Positions 4,506 to 60,037 of a DNA stretch of 64,000 nt are shown here, in pieces. Source of the DNA: Bisporella sp. PMI_857 (lineage: Eukaryota > Ascomycota > Leotiomycetes > Helotiales > Helotiaceae); the NCBI GenBank assembly GCA_021307315.1, contig JAJSPD010000032.1, positions 248,001 through 312,000 on the forward strand. Reading direction: 5' to 3'. The translations under genes and the position numbers were made by a program. Under the pieces are notes generated by a model that saw only the letters and a list, made by a program, of their open reading frames with translations, was not told the DNA's origin and ran no database searches. How positions within the stretch are numbered: position 1 is the first letter of the stretch; each line of letters opens with the position of its first letter.

Positions 4506-6880
4506 CTACTACCGTATACATGTTTGGGCTTGTGTTACAGTAACCTTTTCGTTCAAAATGCTACAGTACCGTGCCGGTTATGGTGTAGCTTGCGGCAGAC
4601 CCGCGTTTCACGCATTCCAGATGGTACAGGAAAAAAGCCCAGGAAAGATTCAACAGCCGCGCGCTCATCGGTCCTTCTTTTTTATTTATATTCCTTTATC
4701 TAAACTTAGTTTTTCAAGAAAATGGGCTGGCCGCGAAACAAGCGTTTCTGGTCATTAAAGCCGATCTTGGAAAATCTCAAAGCCCGGTTCCGTTTCCATC
4801 TGAACGAACTGAACCCTCCTCACCTAGGAACCCGAACTCTATCTATTACCCAAAAAATATATATATATATGTATATATATCAAACTCAACCTATGACGAT
4901 ATTCCAAATAGATAAAGAAAAAAAAGCGTTGCACTTTCTTATCGGGGAATCCACCCCTAACGTTCCATCCATCCATTCAATTTCAATCTATTTTCAAGGA
5001 TATACTCTCAGAGCGTCCCATGGATTCGTAAATGACGATCGATGCCGTGTCACGCACACCACATCCCTAACGAGATTATCACGAACCGGGGTTCAAACAC
5101 CGAAAAAAAACGAGCCCACAAGAAAGGGGTGTCAGGAGGTTCGATATCAAATGCTCATCCCTTAACTCTCTCTCTCTCTGTCTCTGCTCGACCATCATGA
5201 CCCGTTTACCTTGTATATTCTGACTCAAACCGAACATGTCATATCCGGCTTCGCACCAGAGCAAGGTCAAAACCATACACGGCGCTCTTTTTGGATTCCC
5301 TCCCATTTCCCTCCCCCCCCCCCCAAAGGAGGTGACACAAAAGCAATCTCTCCTCGCAGCTTTCATATCCTGAGATACACATAATAATCCATGATAGATG
5401 GATAGTAATAGCACCACACCTTTCACATCCCTACATCCCCTCCCTCCCTTCCATCTTCTTCTCTTCGATCGATCCAAGAACACACACGCACACACACATA
5501 TATAGAAACACCGCCTCCTCATCCTTAAATCTCAATACCACTTTTTTTCCCCCGCACACACGCCATCCACCGGTCTCAAAAAGGTTGAATCCTATGATCA
5601 AAGCGTTTCCTTTTTCCTTCTCCTCCTTCCGTAGCGAGGGATCTTCGGTTTCGTGTCTCCGAGACATATGTATGTACATGTACATTGTTACATGTAACCT
5701 ACCCGGCACTTTTACTGTACGTGATGGATAGGGAAGGGGAGATCGCCCGGTTTTTTTTTTCGTTTTTTCTTTCTTAGTCTGATGTCAAAAAAACCCCCCT
5801 CCCTTGTTACCTAAACCCCCCCCCCCCATATGACTCTGATAGATGGTTCCCGCCGTGCGGCGTTCCTGTGACCCAGAGTATCCACGTGCATCCTACTATC
5901 ATCTCTCCCACGAACGGCTCGCCTTTTTTTTTTTTTCTTGCGTCACGTCAGCGAGCGGGTGGGGAATCCCCGTGAATAAAAACCACAAGCTTTGGTTCCT
6001 TGCCCCATGCCCATGCATCCTGGATCTCGTTGCTCGATAACTCACAGAGCTCCATACTGTAGGTGCTCGATCCATCCAAACCCGATCATCACCTACCTCT
6101 CCGAGGCGAATGAAAAAGAAGGAGAAGGGGAAAAAAAGTGGAAAGAATAACGCTCGGAGTTCGAGGAACCATTTTGGCCGGAGCAGTCGTCGTTCAGCCC
6201 CAACATGCCAAAAGTCTCCGATGCTGCTGCGGCTTCCCGCAATAATCACCTCACTTCACCAGGCGCAACCCGAGGTCCTCTCACTTTGCAGCCATGCACG
6301 ACGTGAGGGAGAAAGAAAAAATAAATGGAAAAATGGAGAAAAAGAACGCAAATATATTTCATGTACCTCACGTGTTTGACAGAAAACGATGACAGGTACG
6401 GTATGTGACATGCAGGAACTCCCCCTCGTCCCCCTTACTTTCCCCTTTCCTTTCCGTTCTATGGTAACATGCATACATACGTTACGTTAGTTTTTTTTAT
6501 CTTTCATGATCCTTCGTGGCTCGTATGTTTCGAGACCCGTCCATCCATCCATGCGGGCCGATCGACCACTTTCTAGAAAGCGGGTATCGGTTCGAAGAAA
6601 AGTAACTCTGTGTCAACGTCCATGCCGTTACTGGAAATTAATGGAAACTCTCACGACGGGGCTCGAAAGGTGCAATGTATGTACATAGGCGCGCAGCGAT
6701 GCTGCATATGCGGCTTTCCATCCCATCGAGGCCCCCTGCGGATTGAAGGGTAGGTCGTACGTAGGTGTGGGTGTGAATCTAAGTCAGGTTGTGAACCTGC
6801 CCTTGCGATGAACATGGTCATCCTGCTTATTGACCTGCAGTTACCGGACTTGATGGGGAAGCATTAGAGCTCCGTGGGCG
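4506..6880. other. Gene-free pyrimidine-rich and microsatellite region
   Basis: No supportable gene. It contains an AT dinucleotide tract near 4855–4880, CT-rich runs (5165–5185, 5435–5465), C homopolymers near 5309–5325 and 5815–5827, T-runs near 5750 and 5925, a CA tract near 5484–5500 and CATC repeats near 6540. Short ORFs on both strands are overlapping and motif-free. The composition resembles a long fungal promoter or 5' leader. Together with 1–2794 it makes about 5 kb of unexplained sequence once the transposon is removed. Confidence 0.5.
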
Positions 6881-8246: not shown

Positions 8247-8599
8247 AGTGGCCTTGTAATTTGATTTTGTCGTCTCACTCGTGCCTCCAGAATTTGAGCT
8301 TTTTTGAACGTTGCTCTCTAAAATCGCGGGGCATGTAATTATGTCATCCCTACCGTAGAACTAACGGGCCTTCCACCCATTGGCTGGTCGTGGTACCTAG
8401 TCTCAATAAACCCTGGGCAGAAAAGGTAGAAGACACCAGATGAGCAAGCGTGAATATTCTCTATTTTCTATATAATGTAAAATAAACTGTACGTGATCTG
8501 ATTGGTAGAAAGTAATAGCAGAAAGAATTTTCCTACTACATGACATTTCAATAAAAAAATTATATTTGCCAGTTTTGTTTCGTTAAAATTCCTGCTTTT
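8247..8599. other. Upstream region of the F-box gene
   Basis: AT-rich, no ORF of note. It is likely the promoter of the minus-strand F-box gene and ends at the target-site duplication of the adjacent retroelement. No specific regulatory site identified. Confidence 0.5.
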
Positions 8600-8615
8600 A
8601 ATAACCAGTTGCATT
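8600..8615. repeat. Target-site duplication, left copy (retroelement 1)
   Basis: AATAACCAGTTGCATT here is repeated exactly at 9463–9478, on the other side of the inserted element. A 16-bp direct repeat flanking a sequence with an A-rich 3' tail is the mark of target-primed reverse transcription. Confidence 0.9.
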
Positions 8616-8695
8616 GGAGGGCGAAGACTCAACACCTGTATGTGGTGCCCTCTACGAACCTTCAGCGTTTACGTCTGGAGAGCCGAGATTGAGTC
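8616..8695 (+). ncRNA. HDV-like self-cleaving ribozyme, copy 1
   Basis: The sequence folds as the nested double pseudoknot of HDV-like ribozymes. P1 is GGAGGGC 8616–8622 with GCCCTCT 8647–8653, including the typical first G•U pair. P2 is GACTCAA 8626–8632 with TTGAGTC 8689–8695. P3 is ACC 8634–8636 with GGT 8644–8646. L3 is TGTATGT: its first U and sixth base G can form the known U•G wobble, and its GU can pair with A8654–C8655 as P1.1. P4 is CTTCAG 8660–8665 with CTGGAG 8675–8680. C8684 sits five bases before P2', where the catalytic cytosine lies, although the following motif is CGAG rather than CNRA. Predicted cleavage is just before 8616. Activity is inferred. Confidence 0.82.
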
Positions 8696-9462
8696 AATTC
8701 GAGCTGGAGTCGAGAACGCACGGTACAACGCAACACTCGAAACAGAGGTCCTTTCAACTCGAATCAAAGACTACAAGCCTCCGTATAAGGCAAACCTATT
8801 CTTCAGTACTCGCCGTTCGGTTACCTGCGCGCTGGCAGGGCGACAGTCAGTCGAATACCCTCTGGAGCATGAAAATTTTTCACTCGACCCACTTTTATTT
8901 TGAGCCTCAATTCGACATCGAAGCAATTCTGTACGACTACATTTATCTACCATCTTACGGTTTCTATGCCCTTCGCTAAAGGGAACTAACCTCTGGGCAC
9001 CTAGTACGAGCCACGACCGGCGTTGACTACTAAGAAAACGAAAAGAATAAGCCTTAGGAAGGAGACAGCAGGGCCGGCAGAAAGGAAAAGAGATTTGCGG
9101 AAAGAAAGAAAAGTTTTTGGGTAGTTCTGAGAGTCAAATAAAAAGGAAGAGAATGCTTTGGCTATATACAGGGACTCGATCCCCAGCATTCACTGGAATA
9201 TATGAGAGGTTTTTGGAAGAAGTGTATTAAGGCTACTGGTCTATTAATATTGGCCAGTACAGTCCTTGTAGGGTACTTGTGCTCCTGCTTCTTTTCTTTT
9301 TACTCTCGGACAAAAGCATATTCAGGACCACAGTATTTATTACTGTTATTAGGATCGCGAAGCTCTCGAGAAAGGGCCTGCCTGAGGGCCAGGCCTGGGG
9401 GCCTAGCCGTGTTACATAGTCCTCGACTGATACAGCACGTTAAAAGGAATAATAATAATAAT
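8616..9462 (+). mobile_element. Ribozyme-led non-autonomous retroelement, copy 1
   Basis: An 847-bp insertion bounded by a perfect 16-bp target-site duplication and ending in an (AAT)n tail (9448–9462). Its first about 85 bp and its last about 40 bp before the tail (9402–9439, GTGTTACATAGTC core) match the second copy at 59111–60037. The interior, about 8700–9400, shows no visible match to that copy. No reverse transcriptase or endonuclease is encoded. The open frames present (starting near 8614 and at 9202, the latter with one hydrophobic segment) match nothing I know. The 5' end coincides exactly with the predicted cleavage site of an HDV-like ribozyme, so the copy is 5'-complete. It would need an autonomous LINE to move. 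Confidence 0.85.
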
Positions 9463-9478
9463 AATAACCAGTTGCATT
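9463..9478. repeat. Target-site duplication, right copy (retroelement 1)
   Basis: Exact 16-bp match to 8600–8615, directly after the (AAT)n tail. Confidence 0.9.
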
Positions 9479-9559
9479 ATATTATAATTGTATAGTTAAA
9501 ATGGCATTACTGCATGTAAACTGCCAAGTATGTAGTTGAGCCCTGGTCGTATAGTCACG

Positions 9560-9867
9560 TGAGAGCTTGACACCTGCATACTCCACCTTTGGACACGTAG
9601 ATAGCTTTCTCTCTTTATTTCGTCTTCTAGTTAATAGAGCACTGTATTGTACAGTTCTGAAATGGTGCTCGCATGACAAAAGCTCGCGGGTTTTTTTCTC
9701 CTTTTTACAAAGCTTACAACAAGCGTAACGGCTTAGAACGCAAGTTTATATTACGCGAGTATTTCTGTAGAACCGTACAATAAGGTACTCTATTAACTAG
9801 GAGATCAAACAAAAAGAGAAAGCTATCTACATGTACAAAGGTGGAGTATTTAGGTGTCAAGCTCTCA
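9560..9867. repeat. Foldback inverted repeat (MITE-like)
   Basis: The left arm, about 9560–9664, and the right arm, about 9767–9867, are imperfect reverse complements over roughly 100 bp. Shared blocks include TGAGAGCTTGACACCT, ATACTCCACCTTTG, GTAGATAGCTTTCTCT and TAGTTAATAGAG. Weaker similarity continues towards the centre, so the unit is close to one large degenerate palindrome. No coding capacity. It is probably a decayed foldback transposon or MITE. I could not fix the outer ends or a target duplication. Confidence 0.75.
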
Positions 9868-37432: not shown

Positions 37433-39732
37433 ATGATGAAGTTCTCTACTATTCTGCTGTTTTTGACCTCGCTCTCAACTCAGGTCTTGAGCCTCTCTCC
37501 TGCGCAGTGGAGAGGACAGTCTATCTATCAGGTTGTTACGGATCGGTTTGCTCGTATGTTGTTCCGTTGTTGAATGCACTTTCACGCCTGGTTCTTAATG
37601 CTTAGAATCCGGTTCTAATTGTAATCGGTATATATAGGTACTGATGGCTCAACGACCGCAACTTGCAACACCGGAGATCAGGTGTACTGTGGAGGAACAT
37701 GGCGAGGTATCATCAACAAACTGGACTACATCCAAGGAATGGGATTCACAGCCGTAGGGTTCCTCAAGTACCACAAAGCCAACCTGAATCTAACATGCTC
37801 AGATCTGGATATCTCCAATTGTAGAGCAAATCACCGGACAGACAGGAGACGGATCATCCTACCATGGATATTGGGCTAAGAATATCAACACACTTAACTC
37901 AGCCTTTGGAACGGAGGCAGACTTAATCGCTTTATCAGCCGCTATTCACGCCCGGGGCATGTACTTCATGGTTGATGTGGTCACTAATCACATGGCATAC
38001 AATGGATGCGGAGATTGTGTTGACTATAGCACGCTCAGCCCATTCAATTCGGTTTGTATTCCTAGGGAATATCAGTCTATGATGGGTGGCTGATTGTTCA
38101 CAAGAAATCGTACTTCCACGACTTCTGCCTCATCAACTATAGTGATCAGAATAGCATTAAGAATTGCTGGATGGGGTCAAATACCGTTTCTCTTCCAGAC
38201 CTCAGAACAGAGAACACAGATGTCAGAAATATTTTCAACACTTGGATTACAAACCTTGTTTCCAAATACAGTATTGATGGTTTGAGAGTTGATAGTGCTC
38301 AGCAAGTCGACAATGCTTTCTTCCCTGGATTTGAGAGTGCTTGTATGTTGGTCCATTATCGAAGGGAGATTGCCTGCTAATCATATTACGCAGCTGGAGT
38401 TTACATTGTGGGAGAAGTCTACAATGGTGACCCGGCATACGTCTGCCCATACCAGAATTACATGAGCGGTGTCTTGAACTTCCCCACCTACTACTGGATC
38501 ACCCAAGCATTCCAGTCTACCAGCGGTAGTATCAGCAACCTGGTCAATGGCGTCAATAACATCAAATCGGCTTGTGCTGACACTACGCTCTTGGGATCTT
38601 TCCTAGAGAACCACGATGTCAAGCGATTTGCTTCCTTGACTCAGGACATCTCACTGACCAAGAACGCCATTGCTTTCAACATCCTTCAAGACGGAATTCC
38701 TATCAGTAAGTTTGGAAAACAAAGACATGAAATCGATGCTAACGGGGCCAGTCTACTATGGCCAGGAGCAGCGTTATTCTGGTGGCGATGTGCCTTACGA
38801 TAGGGAGGCTTTGTGGCTATCTGGTTACTCAACAACATCGACTTTCTACCAGTTTATCGCAGCTGTGAACCAAATTCGAAACCAAGCTGTTTACAAGAGT
38901 TCTGGATATGTACTCTACAAGGCTTATCCTATCTACTCAGACAGCTCTGTCATCGTAATGAGAAAGGGAGACACTGGGTATGTAATATCCAAGATCGAAC
39001 ATCTGAAACTACAGCACTGACTAAACTGCTCTATAGTTCTCAAGTCATCAGTGTTTTCACGAACCAAGGCGCTAATGGTGGCTCCTACACCCTTACCCTT
39101 TCATCAAGCGCGACGGGCTTTACAGCTAACCAAGCCATCATCGAAGTCCTTAGCTGTACCGCCTACACCACTGACTCGGGCGGAAACCTCAACGTTGCCA
39201 TGGCGAGCGGTCTCCCGCGTGTTTTCTATCCCACAGCGCAGCTGACCGGCAGCGGCATCTGCGCCAGTCTGACAGGTTAGAGCTTCAGCTTATCTCGTCA
39301 CCTCAACATGTTTCGTTCTCAAGACAAAAGGTTATTGTCAAATACTCATTTGATATCACAGGACCAGGATCCTCCACGACAACGACCGCGAAACCCACGA
39401 GCACAACCTCGGGATCGTGCCCTACGACCGTCGCGGTAACCTTCAACGAGCTTGTTACCACGGTGGTTGGGCAAACGATCAAGATCGTAGGAAATAATGC
39501 GCAGCTGGGAAACTGGGCGACTGCGAGCGGGGTTGCGTTGAGCGCCAGCAGGTACACGAGCAGCAACCCGCTATGGTACGTCACGCTGAATCTGGCGCCG
39601 GGGACGGCCCTGCAGTATAAGTATATCAAGGTGGAGAGCTCGGGGACGGTGACTTGGGAGAGCGATCCGAATCGGAGCTACACGGTGCCGAGTTGCGTGG
39701 CTACTGCGACGGTTAATGATAGCTGGCGGTGA
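37433..39732 (+). CDS. Secreted alpha-amylase, GH13 with C-terminal CBM20
   Basis: Eight exons, 37433–37553, 37638–37753, 37803–38051, 38105–38342, 38394–38705, 38752–38977, 39037–39275 and 39362–39732, encode 623 aa, all in phase. A signal peptide (about 1–20) is followed by a Taka-amylase-like domain: [29 protein letters not shown] (nucleophile Asp near 225), IVGEVYNG (acid/base Glu near 249) and [10 protein letters not shown] (Asp near 315). The domain ends with [12 protein letters not shown] Thr/Ser-rich linker (about 502–523) leads to a starch-binding CBM20 module (about 525–623; [26 protein letters not shown]). It cleaves internal alpha-1,4 bonds of raw or soluble starch outside the cell. 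Two ATGs in tandem open the frame; either could start it. Confidence 0.95.
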
Positions 39733-40953: not shown

Positions 40954-43900
40954 TCAATAATGGTGTCTTGAATTGCCATAGGGAAGCGGTTGACCAGTGG
41001 CAGCGGCAATGATACGTTTTCCAGTTGCAGCCATCTGTTGAATCTTCTTGAGGCTAACATCGTGCGCGTCAACCTGGCTGACAAGCATAAAGAGGTGTTC
41101 AAGACGTTGGATGTATTTTGACACAATAGTTTCGATATGTCCACGCGCATCTTCCATCTGTCAAAAAAATTAGTATTTCATCTTCTCAGTCTCACATGTG
41201 TCTTACCAGAGAACCATCATTGATCTGCCCATTCAGAACTCGTAATATCATATCTAGATATTCTATACGGCGTGACATATGTGCATCATCAATACCATCA
41301 GATGTGAGATTGCCGAGTGAGAGGAGGACGATTGTGTTGACCTGCTGAAGGAAGCTGGGATCAAATCGAACTGCAAAGTCCACAAACATCTCTTGACTAC
41401 GTGGGTTTTGAAGGACAATCAAGGTAGCAGCTTCGAAGTCCCCCTGCTCCATGAGTGTACCGATCTCTTCAAATTCAGCCTCATATTTTCTCTGCGCCTC
41501 TGACTTCTCCTTGGCCAAAGCACCAGCAGAACCAGCCGTACTATGGGTTCGGCGAGTGTTCTCTCGTGAAATTTGTTGCAGCGTTCTCTCTTGGAACTCT
41601 TGCTGTGCAGCAGCCATGGTCGAAATAGTCTCAGTGAGCCCACCTATAAGGCGTGATAAATGGTCAATCTTTACACTATCAGCGCTTCGTTGTTGTTCAA
41701 TGACCGCAATTTGCTCTGCAGCTTGACGCTGGACATCTGCTGCAACCTCCTTTGAAGTATCGATTGCCAATTTAGTAAATGCGGGAGTGACAGAATTCTG
41801 CATAATCGTAGCAAAATGATCCTGTACACCGAAAGCTACGCTCTTGGCAAGAGATTCGGCCATAAGTTTCAAGAGCTGTGGTTGTTGAACGGCTCTGCCA
41901 ATAGCGTCGGGAAGAACCCTTTGAAGTTCCTTGGGTATGGCGGTAGCAATATTGGAATTTAGCTTTGGGCCGAGATGCTCGTTCAGTTGCGCTGTCACGA
42001 TCTTCGAAGTGATCTCCGATATGGCCGGTACAACTGCAGCTTGGATGCTGGTCTCAACAATGCGTGTAAGAGTCACCTCAATATTATCAGCTAATGTTGC
42101 GGATACCATACGAAGCATAGCTTCTTGATGACCTTCCGCCACCGCCGTTTGGATTTTTCGGTCTGACTTGATGTCTTGTGTGAAAATGCCCAGAGAAGCA
42201 TCAAATGCTTTCTTAACGTCCTCTGCGACTCGAGCTCCGATATCAGCGACAGATGCTTCGTTAAAGGCTTGGGATGTACTAGGGACAGATGGAATCACTT
42301 CTGGCGTCGTAGCGTTGTTCAGCTTGGACGAGCTTCCATTTCTGGAATTGCTCATAGGATCGAGAACAATCGGTTTGCTTGGTGAAGCAGATAAGGCTGG
42401 AGGTGTCTCAATTGCTGAAGCTGCCTTCCGTCTCTTACCTTTCCCTAATTTCTCACTAGCAGGAGTTGCTCCACTTGAGCTAGCGTCCTTCTTTTCAGTC
42501 CGACTCTCAGACTTTGATGCTGAGGCGTTGGCTGACTCGGCATGATGCACCTTCTTACTCTCTTTGGATGAGGCCTTTTCTGGTGATGAACGCGGAGCAG
42601 AACGGACGGGAAGTGGGACTTGAGGTGTAGATTCTGTAGACTCTGGAACAGGGGTTGGAGTCACTGGAATCTCTTTGAGGCTATCGATGAAAATCACTCC
42701 TTCCTTCTCAGCATCGATACCACTGATGACTTTATTTTCAGGAGTCCATCCTAGATCTGATTGCTTGATAGCAAGACATGTCACACCTTTGGAGTGCATG
42801 GCATACAGTTCAAACATCGTCGGAGGTCCTTCGCCGGTCGATGATGAATTAGGAGTTTGTAAGATGTCCAAACTACGGAGTGATCCTTTATTCTCAAAAG
42901 AATACTCTCGCATACCACTAATGACTGCCGTAGATTCTGGTGTTGCGATTTGAACGCTCTTGGTAGCAAGGGCATGTACAAACTCTGCTTGGGTCATAGA
43001 CTTTGACAGGATATACTTCGGAGCGGACAAGTGCAAGAAATAAATAGAGTTTCGAGTTGGATGACCAACCACAATCATTCCTGTCTGCGCATGATAGAGC
43101 ACACTGCAGACGGCATCCGATTCCTTACCATGCGGGAGATGGATTTCCTGTACCGGCTTTCCAAGGGCGAGATCCCACAATTGGAGGGAATGATTTTGCT
43201 TCATCCCAACAATTAGATATCGCAGAGGACCACCTCTTTGATATGGTCGGATCTTATCCACCAGAAGTACAGATGTAGGCCACGACTTCTCGTAACCTGG
43301 TGTTGTTATCAATGTCATCAAGGGCTCCTTGATTTCGATGGATGAGGTAGCGGAAAACGGATTGCCACGGCCATCACTCTTCGTGAGAGGACGGATGTCC
43401 CAGAACTTAACCCGGCCAGCCTTGTCCAGAGAAACAATGGTTGTATCGTCTTCGCTAAAGCTGAAATCCTTTCCAGCCTTGCCAGTATTGACTTTTAGGG
43501 TATGCTGAGCCAAATATTTTTCGGTATCGACCGCACGATCCTTTCCATTCTTTATATAAGACTTCATGATGACGTTAGGCCAAATGATATGGACGAACTT
43601 TCCACGACCAATAGCAAAGAAATCTGGATGGTTCGAGCTTTTTCTTGCCCTAGTCTTCAAAACACCTGAAGAAAGCTGGGTTAGCAACAAATTCTATGGG
43701 TACCTGTGGCCCACAAAGCAAGGAGTGATCAGACTTACCACCCGGAGATTCATTGTCCATAGACTGGATGGGGGTCAATGCAAAGCCATGCATTTCCAGA
43801 TGATCCCGATGATCTTCATCGAGATGATCGCCTTCTCCATCTTTCACTAGTGCCCAATAGACAGTACCACTGATACCAGTTCCAATGATAGATTCTTTCA

Positions 43901-45785
43901 GATCAGCCGACGAAGCGCAGATCACAACAGTAAAAATGCGGTCTCGAGTCTCGGTAAACAATTTTCCATCCTTGCCATCGTCTTGCCTAATGGCCCGGAT
44001 CCCACCATTCTTAGACATACCATAAACAATAAAGTTATTTGACGCTGTAACAAGGACACGGTCGACTTGATCGAATTCCTTCTTCAATCTCGCAATGTCC
44101 ATTGTAGCATCATCACGGAAAAGAGGCCGGGTATCTTCCCCTTCTTGAATGCTTATGGAGATCCAGGGGCGCATGGGGAAGTTGCAGACTTTGACTGCTT
44201 TTTCCTCTGGCTCTTTGGCGGTGGTTTCATCTGCATCTGCGCTCTCCCAGCTGTCCGGAGCATCACGTTGGGCTGCATCTTGAGCGGTCTCGCCAAGATC
44301 CCCATTCGCAGCGTCGTCGATGATCTCCTTGACAGCCTCTGCCACAGAGACGGGATAAGCGTCAAGTGCATGGCGATTCTCTTCCTTCTCAAGCTCTCTC
44401 TTGATAGACTGTGCAGCAATCTGTGCGCTTTCTTCAAACTCTTGCTCAGTCTGGGCAGCTAGCATTTCCTGCAAATTCTTTTCCATGGTGGCTTGATCGT
44501 CTTCTTGCTCAGCACGACTACCGGTCTCATCTTTTTCATCAAGAGTCTTGTCAGTACGAGCAAGAGCTTCTTGAACTTGCTTGTCTGCTTGGCTACCAAC
44601 CTCTTCGAGAGCTTCAGCAACAGTTTCCTTCGAAGCTCCGATTCCGATCAGTGCTTCAAGCTTACTCCGTCCATCTGGCAAAGGCGTAGGGGGCCCAGAT
44701 GATACTTGAGAAGGTGACTGCAGTTTGCGGCTCGTGTGAGTATGGCTAGAAACCGAGCTTTGCTCATCGATTTTGTGTTTTTGATCAGTGTTGTCACCTT
44801 GACGCTTTAAGATCTGCACTGTTGGAGCAGCTGGAGCAGGAGTAGAAGCCTTTGGGGTACGAATGCGAGGAGACGATGCAGCTAATTGATCGAAAGGATT
44901 GACATATGTAAAGATGCCTTGTGGCTTTGGGGCAGTTTCAGGAATATTTTCCTTCCCAGCAGATGCCTTTCTACCCTCGAGAGCTGTGGTAGCCGTCAAA
45001 CTCAAATCAAGCGACGCGTTCTCAAATCTAGTTTGTGCGGTCTCATTATACTCCCCCTGAGAGCTAGACTTGCTAGGAGGCGTGAGAACTTTGGAAGGCG
45101 TGAGCTGCGGAGTAGAATCTGTTTGGGGAGGTTTCGGCTTGTTCAGCAGCGAGAGAAGGTAGTTCTGTGCTTCAACTGGAGGCTCGGAACGAGCACTAAA
45201 GCTCGATTGAGCCGGAGGTGAAGCAGCGGATAGTTGCGGACTAGGTTGCTGTCCTTGCTGCGACTTGACTGAGCTCATTAGAGTAGATAGAAGATCCGAG
45301 CCTCCTCGTCCCTGTTGTGGCGAACCAATATGACCTATAGCCTCTGCAGGTCCATATCCCATAGAAGGTTCACGCGAAGGTGGAAGTGGTGTGCCAATAG
45401 GCGCAGGCTGTTGTCTTGAAGAGTTTGTTGCTGGCTGGAACTTCAATAAATTGAGAAGGCTTGAGGTTCGAGCAGCATTTTGTGGATCGCCACTTGCAGT
45501 TGGAATTCGAGGAGTTTCGGCTGGACTCATAATAGCAGAGCTATGATGAGGTTGTGTATTGTATCCCGAAGGAGTGGGGACGGCTGAAGCAACTGTAGGA
45601 GGATGATAGGAGGGAGGGTATGAAGTGTGCTCAGGTTGACCGAAGTATCCTGGGCTCGGGCTTGAATAGCCATACGTAGCACTAGGCTGTAGATTAACTT
45701 GGGGCTTCTGTTGACTCTGCTGACCGCTTCGAAGCTGAGCAAGTAGCGATTCGAGATTGCCATCGCCGGAAGAGTAACCAGACAT
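40954..45785 (-). CDS. EDC4/Ge-1-like mRNA decapping scaffold
   Basis: Three exons, 45785–43739, 43665–41207 and 41157–40954 (introns 73 and 49 nt), give 1569 aa in frame. The first about 530 residues are Pro/Ser/Gln-rich, with short helical SLLNLLK-type motifs resembling those that bind decapping partners. A WD40-like region of about 400 residues follows (from NFPMRPWISISIQEG through FVHIIWPN, VSLDKAGRVKFWDI and SLQLWDLALGKPVQE). A charged Ser/Lys/Ala linker leads to a long, all-helical C-terminus (about 1100–1569) with Ala/Gln-rich amphipathic repeats, typical for oligomerisation of Ge-1/EDC4/Varicose and fission yeast Pdc1. Such proteins hold Dcp1–Dcp2 and Edc3 in P-bodies. Family assignment rests on domain order. 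Confidence 0.82.
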
Positions 45786-59096: not shown

Positions 59097-59110
59097 AAGC
59101 TAGTCGCGTT
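59097..59110. repeat. Target-site duplication, left copy (retroelement 2)
   Basis: AAGCTAGTCGCGTT, repeated exactly at 60036–60049 after the A-tail. The target is one of the subterminal repeats of the host DNA transposon. Confidence 0.88.
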
Positions 59111-59225
59111 GGAGGGCGAAGACTCAACACCTGTATGCGGTGCCCTCTACGAACCTCCAGCTCCCTTGCACGGTAGTAAGCTCTGCTTCACTGTGCCTGG
59201 GAGTCTGCAAAGCCGAAATTGAGTC
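59111..59225 (+). ncRNA. HDV-like self-cleaving ribozyme, copy 2
   Basis: Same fold as copy 1 with a longer P4. P1 is 59111–59117 with 59142–59148; P2 is GACTCAA 59121–59127 with TTGAGTC 59219–59225; P3 is ACC 59129–59131 with GGT 59139–59141; L3 is TGTATGC, with the U•G wobble positions kept and GU available to pair with A59149–C59150 as P1.1. P4 is rebuilt from different bases: CTCCC 59161–59165 with GGGAG 59199–59203, and GCAC 59168–59171 with GTGC 59193–59196. J4/2 reads CGAAA from C59214, matching the CNRA consensus. Keeping the stem with a changed P4 sequence is covariation support. Cleavage is predicted just before 59111. Confidence 0.86.
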
Positions 59226-59999
59226 AATTACAACTACGGTAAATGTTTTCTGACTCTATCGATACCGCCACGTCAAAGTTTTCACCCCCAACTTCGACAT
59301 TTTTACAACAACAAAAAACGACAACTAAAAGATTGGAGAAAAAATACATAGAACGAAAAGCGAATAATTTGTCGATTATAACATCCGGCATACGATTGCA
59401 AGCTACGTAGGAGCTTGCTAGCAAAGTACGAATCCTCCTTTCTTCGACATTCTTTCAGCGGGTAGACTTTCGGCGTCGTTTCTTCAAATCGCACTTTTAC
59501 TGGCTACGGAAAGCTTTCTTTTTAATGAGCTTACAGCATCCCCAACGCTCTTTGCGGTACTAGAAAGCTAGGTCAGAAGCAATCTTATTTTCGAAGCTTT
59601 ATTCTTTTTTGTTGACAACGGCTATTGTAGCATTATGACTTTTGCTCGCAGACTTGAAAAACATAAAAAGGATAGCTAGGCAGAAAAGGAGCCAGAAGAC
59701 ATAAAATAAACACCGAGTGGCCCTGCTTGATTTCGTGTCGAGTGGTTTTTAGAGTTATTTTTCCTGACAGAGCAGTACACACCAGGCTAGCGTTTGGTCA
59801 GTGTAGCGATGTAGAAACAAGGGCCAATTACCTACTAAGTACTGCGTCGAATGACTGTTTATTTGGGCACTATGCTGTTGATAGAGAGCTGGAGAAATAG
59901 GCTGGGAAAGGGTATACTATCTGAGGATTAGGTACTCGAGGCCCCTAGGCAGGAGGACCTAGTAGTGTTACATAGTCACCGACTCATACAGCACGAATC

Positions 60000-60037
<38 letters not shown>
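59111..60037 (+). mobile_element. Ribozyme-led non-autonomous retroelement, copy 2 (nested)
   Basis: A 927-bp insertion with a 33-base poly-A tail (60005–60037) and a 14-bp target-site duplication, nested in the right arm of the DNA transposon. It shares its 5' ribozyme block and its 3' block (59958–59995, GTGTTACATAGTC core) with copy 1, but the interior (about 59230–59950) is unrelated by eye. No coding capacity recognised. The tail differs from copy 1 ((AAT)n there), yet both are A-rich, as with LINE-mobilised sequences. The long pure poly-A suggests a fairly recent insertion. Confidence 0.87.

Follow-up and report, generated by a model that had tools for sequence, protein, structure and literature searches.

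Predicted HDV-like ribozymes at the first base of short non-autonomous retroelements in Bisporella sp. PMI_857

Results

Two insertions in the window

The window, by which we mean the whole 64-kb stretch of DNA analysed here, carries two copies of a short retroelement on its forward strand, each of them headed by a predicted HDV-like ribozyme and bounded by a target site duplication. The features of the two copies are as follows.

8599..8615, + strand: 5' target site duplication of copy 1, an exact 17-bp repeat of 9462-9478
8616..9461, + strand: non-autonomous retroelement copy 1, duplication-bounded, about 846 bp, with an (AAT)n tail at 9448-9461
8616..8695, + strand: predicted HDV-like ribozyme of copy 1 (subfamily A); 8616 is base 1 of P1 and base 1 of the insertion
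8616-8622/8647-8653, + strand: P1 of copy 1, 7 bp, with G-U as the first pair
8626-8632/8689-8695, + strand: P2 of copy 1, 7 bp
8633, + strand: extra C between P2 and P3 of copy 1, a mark of the fungal HDV variants described in PMC5640933
8634-8636/8644-8646, + strand: P3 of copy 1
8637-8643, + strand: L3 of copy 1, UGUAUGU, with the U at position 1 and the G at position 6
8638-8639/8654-8655, + strand: P1.1 of copy 1
8660-8665/8675-8680, + strand: P4 of copy 1
8684, + strand: candidate catalytic C of copy 1, in J4/2 (GCCGAGA)
9392..9464, + strand: LINE-derived 3' tail of copy 1, 94.5% identical over 73 bp to the LINE 3' end in locus L091
9462..9478, + strand: 3' target site duplication of copy 1
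59097..59110, + strand: 5' target site duplication of copy 2, repeated from 60036, with one base common with the element
59111..60037, + strand: non-autonomous retroelement copy 2, duplication-bounded, with a poly(A) tail
59111..59225, + strand: predicted HDV-like ribozyme of copy 2 (subfamily B), with a longer P4
59959..59995, + strand: LINE-like 3' end of copy 2, 83.8% identical over 37 bp to L091

The two copies (about 0.85-0.93 kb) are non-autonomous, SINE-like passengers that encode no reverse transcriptase and carry a LINE-derived 3' tail; copy 1 has no reverse transcriptase ORF, its longest + strand ORF reaching 121 aa. Among the other features of the window, an EDC4-like beta-propeller gene (41192-45785, - strand) is apparently split over two overlapping ORFs, possibly by an intron, and its upstream part scores below the curated cut-off. 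A PDB search with one window protein gave no match, and one with another returned laccases and related oxidases. A 144-nt inverted repeat (9545-9688/9739-9882; 78% complementary, 50 nt apart) begins 67 bp past the 3' target duplication of copy 1 and may be a separate mobile element or a hairpin.

The family was collected from the whole genome (55.6 Mb, 284 contigs), where a 29-nt core pattern with at most 3 mismatches occurs at 66 places and its mirror image at 0. Queries with the first 100 bases of copy 1 and with 120 bases of copy 2 returned at least 51 and at least 58 matching pieces (best 40 of 74 and best 40 of 69 candidates scored, respectively). Of 64 distinct copies taken from these loci, all but the 5'-truncated L026 were assigned to three subfamilies: A has 29 of the 63, B 11 and C 23. 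The preliminary description of this locus, which had placed an HDV-type fold at the 5' end of a fungal retroelement, thus stands as regards the fold and its position, with a multicopy family of 66 core matches behind it, and is amended as regards the element, which lacks a reverse transcriptase and is SINE-like.

Ends of the insertions

With the exact 17-bp duplication of copy 1 ending at 8615, base 1 of P1 is base 1 of the insertion, as first described; the 16 bp then given for the duplication fall one base short of the exact match and are equally valid, because the first bases of the duplication are indistinguishable from the AAT tail. The duplication of copy 2 spans 15 bp including the base common with the element, and its leading AA is ambiguous against the poly(A) tail. 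We extended this comparison to 43 copies, leaving out of the 64 those with 5' ends only (20) and the truncated L026, by looking for the longest sequence repeated exactly in the 5' flank and 500-1500 bp downstream and requiring at least 11 bp. A duplication of 12-17 bp is present in 27 of the 43, the other 16 having no repeat above 9 bp, and shuffled flanks gave a repeat of at least 11 bp in 2 of 215 trials. The duplication ends just before base 1 of P1 in 12 of these 27 copies, overlaps it in 10 by one or two bases common with the element (G; A in L038), and leaves 1-3 extra bases in 5, so that the coincidence of 5' ends with the P1 start is borne out in 22 duplication-bounded copies and is off by 1-3 bases in the remainder.

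The tail that precedes the 3' repeat is in most cases (AAT)n for A and C and (AATC)n or rich in A for B. Going by where the 3' repeat lies, the length of most A and C copies is about 780-920 bp and that of B copies 850-940 bp, with L002 (1030 bp) and L007 (1176 bp) longer. Four copies (L019, L024, L027 and L028) combine the absence of a duplication above 9 bp with broken P1 pairs. The 5' truncation of L026, together with a 10-bp duplication of its own, is what target-primed reverse transcription (TPRT) would be expected to leave; the family accordingly displays the non-LTR traits of target duplications, a simple 3' tail and a 5'-truncated copy.

Ribozyme fold and its conservation

Both window copies start with a sequence that fits the HDV double pseudoknot, with a J4/2 of GCCGAGA or GCCGAAA; we take C8684 to be the candidate catalytic C by analogy with C75 of HDV. 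A strict descriptor (7-bp P1, 3-bp P3, U and G in L3, 7-bp P2) matches the 64-kb window, both strands included, at 8616 and 59111 exclusively. Matches of this kind are also expected by chance, however: 400 randomised 64-kb windows (first-order Markov) held a mean of 0.905 strict matches each, with at least one in 238 and at least two in 89, so that chance could account for the fold taken by itself. With the descriptor relaxed to a P2 of at least 5 bp, the window gave 4 matches against 3.1 per randomised window (n = 30), and we set aside those at 6826 and 52946 as chance on that account. The nested-fold energy is ordinary (z -0.24, MFE folding), as expected because the folding program cannot form pseudoknots. 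An Rfam scan of the whole window at gathering thresholds gave no match, and three short stretches searched at E 10 gave no match to an HDV family. Our own model R1, which uses P1, P3 and P4 only and was made from the 63 copies, scores the two window ribozymes at 105.7 and 90.4 bits and gives one further window match, of 6.5 bits. A 20-nt core had 0 matches in a viral collection and 1, bacterial (L120), in a prokaryote collection, about chance by our own estimate.

Across the family, the elements of the fold are strongly retained. At the fixed offsets used for per-copy stem counts, by which indel-bearing copies count as misses, P1 is intact (7/7) in 54 of 63 copies, P2 (7/7) in 56 and P3 (3/3) in 54; the L3 U and G are both in place in 58 of 63, and the GCC of J4/2 likewise in 58. 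A single extra base separates P2 from P3 and is C in 62 of 63 copies, and the pair at the predicted cleavage site is G-U in 41 of 44 distinct rows. In alignment A1 (63 rows, 44 distinct; 25 named pairs, 1097 cells), 95.1% of cells are paired, compared with 34-44% when partners are slid by 1-3 columns. The order P1, P2, P3, P1.1 and P4 proposed at 8616, together with the L3 and J4/2 positions, is upheld in most of the 63 copies.

Two-sided changes occur at 5 of the 25 pairs (12/116 and 15/113 in P2; 47/100, 48/99 and 50/97 in P4). Cells changed on both sides number 64, where shuffling gives a mean of 27.1, and the covariation score of 0.191 compares with 0.104 after shuffling; none of the 500 shuffles attains either value. 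The number of pairs with two-sided change (5 vs 5.5 shuffled) and of further pair types (21 vs 23.3 shuffled) shows no excess over shuffles of A1. The double changes all set subfamily C apart from A and B, and for this reason may represent one or a few events. Between A and C the sequence of P4 is replaced with its pairing retained, and of the 22 unpaired P4 cells, 12 lie at pair 47/100, where B has C-C. Conservation, covariation and a P1 start at the insertion boundary thus go beyond chance, as the fold alone does not; chance would not yield two matches that both sit on the first base of an insertion. As regards the nature of the head, the preliminary description was right in kind: the two window copies begin with a predicted HDV-type self-cleaving ribozyme, cleavage being part of that prediction.

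A LINE that shares the 3' tail

The 3' ends of all three subfamilies resemble that of a LINE, with identities of 94.5% over 73 bp in A, 97% over 66 bp in C and 83.8% over 37 bp in B. With tails that in most cases consist of (AATC)n or poly(A) in place of (AAT)n, B may use another LINE. Pieces of the tail-sharing LINE encode RVT_1 and RNase H domains (Pfam); by eye they also contain an SDHYG motif, which we take to be endonuclease-like, and, in ORF1, what we likewise presume to be CCHC knuckles. Pyrenophora (two), Podosphaera, Lachnellula and Clathrospora, all ascomycetes, are the organisms named among the best 120 of 499 reverse transcriptase relatives, most of which are unnamed; the best-scoring named relative in that set is labelled as a Solirubrobacterales metagenome bin. 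This range of relatives fits a fungal host. By their coordinates, LINE copies are often arranged in tandem or head to head (contigs C241, C263, C267, C278, C184, C203 and C234), and C241 and C263 have an identical 641-bp stretch in common.

The apparent 5' end of this LINE was approached through a 274-nt query, which splits at base 114, its left part being another dispersed repeat; LINE copies align from about base 116 (starts 105-130, two at 180). Three copies (L116/L117, L118 and L119) have different upstream neighbours and start within a few bases of one CA-rich stretch. R1 found no ribozyme match in nine loci of LINE pieces, and no 29-nt core match lies within 2 kb of the best 40 of 119 candidate LINE 5' matches, the smallest distance from one of these to a core match on its contig being about 2.5 kb. 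Since R1 finds none and three starts read without one, the tail-sharing LINE most likely lacks a ribozyme at its apparent 5' end, as judged from pieces whose end is not duplication-bounded.

Several other repeats occur at the LINE loci. A dispersed repeat of about 114 nt (C241 about 38311-38424, L117/L116) occurs at more than 20 places and lies directly before a LINE copy; an HDV-like order noticed by eye in L117 near C241:38420 was dropped, the stretch being this separate repeat. Immediately upstream of the LINE start in L118 sits a 54-nt unit (118-171) with exact ends, found at 11 genome places and on contigs with LINE arrays, and we rejected this stretch as the LINE start because it recurs as an exact-ended unit. 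Another dispersed repeat, of about 190 bp, occupies L117 338-526 (reverse strand), and a query containing it gave 379 first-look candidates, 40 of which were scored.

These observations bear on a reading of the element as a SIDE, that is, an internally deleted LINE that took ribozyme and tail from one ribozyme-bearing LINE, as NARTc did from L1Tc. The LINE-derived tail, a weaker match of copy 1 to LINE 3' sequence further up (47 bp, 74%) and the existence of ribozyme-bearing LINE/SIDE pairs, as described in PMC4035085, fit such an origin, but the starts of three copies of the tail-sharing LINE near one CA-rich stretch, the nine blank loci and the lack of a core match within 2 kb of the best 40 of 119 LINE 5' matches speak against it, and we consider it unlikely. 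A similarly low probability attaches to the idea that the ribozyme is a relic, used by ancestral elements and carried by present copies that are dead: of 30 LINE matches with at least 75% identity, 18 are interrupted by stops, and P1 pairs have been lost from older copies of the element, yet the proportion of copies with complete P1 and P2 stems given above, and the near-identical ribozymes with intact duplications, which suggest fairly recent insertion, are at odds with a dead family.

Element body and transcription

Between subfamilies A and B, similarity is confined at E 1 to two ribozyme stretches, of 51 bp (96%) and 27 bp (89%), and 49 bp (82%) of the 3' end. A and C have in common a 46-nt core and a 3'-end stretch of 293 bp (87%); for B and C the matches cover 46 bp, 44 bp of the 3' end and a single 22-bp stretch of the body. 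As far as these comparisons reach, head and tail are retained while the body of the element is largely free.

No tRNA was found in 8500-9600, around copy 1, and no + strand B box with at most 1 mismatch in copies 1 and 2; the 24 B-box matches in the window stand at chance level (22.4 expected). Because tRNA, B-box and Rfam scans found no tRNA-type Pol III promoter, read-through transcription is probable. Of the traits of a SINE with a LINE-derived tail, the family has the 3' end in common with an autonomous LINE, but these scans gave no Pol III promoter of tRNA, 5S or 7SL RNA origin. That the 5' block is instead a DNA-level internal promoter or protein-binding site whose ribozyme-like pairing is secondary or inactive, for which one could cite Pr77 of L1Tc, at once promoter and ribozyme according to PMC4035085, and a fold that alone is not beyond chance, is very unlikely in view of the two-sided changes at five pairs, the replacement of P4 between A and C with pairing kept, and the tRNA and B-box counts just given.

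Discussion

We regard it as highly probable that the family is a short non-autonomous retroelement whose ribozyme head likely cuts the RNA at base 1 and whose tail is likely the handle by which a LINE enzyme copies it. Such an element would be transcribed, probably by read-through from outside; the ribozyme would then fold and cleave just before base 1, leaving a 5'-OH end; the LINE enzyme, which we infer to be the copier because the 3' tail is common to element and LINE, would recognise the common 3' end of about 70 nt and prime on cut target DNA; and full-length copies would land with 12-17 bp duplications and the ribozyme again at base 1. This last step has its counterpart in the sequence in 22 of 27 duplication-bounded copies, the other 5 having 1-3 extra bases.

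More tentatively, and somewhat short of what we would call probable, fungal HDV-variant ribozymes, described so far with no assigned role, may be the heads of a modular class of SINEs in which a ribozyme replaces the Pol III promoter, bodies and LINE tails vary, and elements spread by read-through and self-cleavage, the ribozyme being kept even though the copying LINE has none. The setting of a fungal HDV-type ribozyme is clear here, namely base 1 of a mobile element, and the resulting claim is testable: a passenger RNA that looks promoter-less would gain an exact 5' end without there being a ribozyme in the LINE that copies it. Bounding by target duplications also offers a simple way to re-read other fungal HDV examples.

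The preliminary description knew of no account of this family. Fungal HDV ribozymes as such were already known (PMC5640933), and what is new is the element headed by them; in the open-licence literature we found no recognisable paper placing an HDV-like ribozyme at a fungal retroelement. Li & Breaker 2017 (PMC5640933) describe 230 such variants from 26 species and demonstrate cleavage for two. An additional nucleotide, in most cases C, lies between their P2 and P3, the pair at the cleavage site is typically though not absolutely C-G, and part of P4 is replaced by an E loop. Their gene associations vary widely, and the main text of that paper has 0 occurrences of the stems "retrotranspos" and "transposable". 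The ribozymes here are like these variants in their HDV topology, their extra C between P2 and P3 and their fungal host, and unlike them in having G-U where C-G is typical at the cleavage site. An earlier HDV search criterion, as related in PMC5640933, allowed no nucleotide between P2 and P3, where one extra base stands here; the fungal variants that break it in the same paper were shown to cleave.

Among non-autonomous elements, the R2/R1 hybrid SIDEs of Drosophila, as described in PMC3414825, take ribozyme and tail from different LINEs, and the family reported here resembles them in being non-autonomous and in joining a ribozyme 5' end to the 3' end of a different LINE, thought to be the mobiliser. 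Duplications are short in both, 14 bp in the R2/R1 SIDEs (PMC3414825) and 12-17 bp here. The R2/R1 SIDEs are site-specific in 28S rDNA and have a known ribozyme donor, R2 (PMC3414825), whereas here the insertions are dispersed and a long sequence, not the same in A and B, separates ribozyme and tail. NARTc, RIME and SIDER with Pr77, of the L1Tc/ingi clade (PMC4035085), are likewise short, dispersed and headed by an HDV-like ribozyme; the trypanosomatid LINE has the same ribozyme (PMC4035085), whereas the tail-sharing LINE here has none at its apparent 5' end.

HDV-like ribozymes are described at the 5' ends of the retroelements R2, R4, Dong, Baggins and RTE (PMC3774820) and L1Tc (PMC4035085). 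Those of PMC3774820 are animal elements that encode a reverse transcriptase, in contrast to the element here; in several of them the cleavage site is the 5' end of the element, as predicted for this family, and in many R2s cleavage falls upstream, within the 28S gene. Non-templated additions have been described for R2s that self-cleave at the 5' end of the element (PMC3774820), and the 1-3 extra bases of 5 of the 27 copies look similar.
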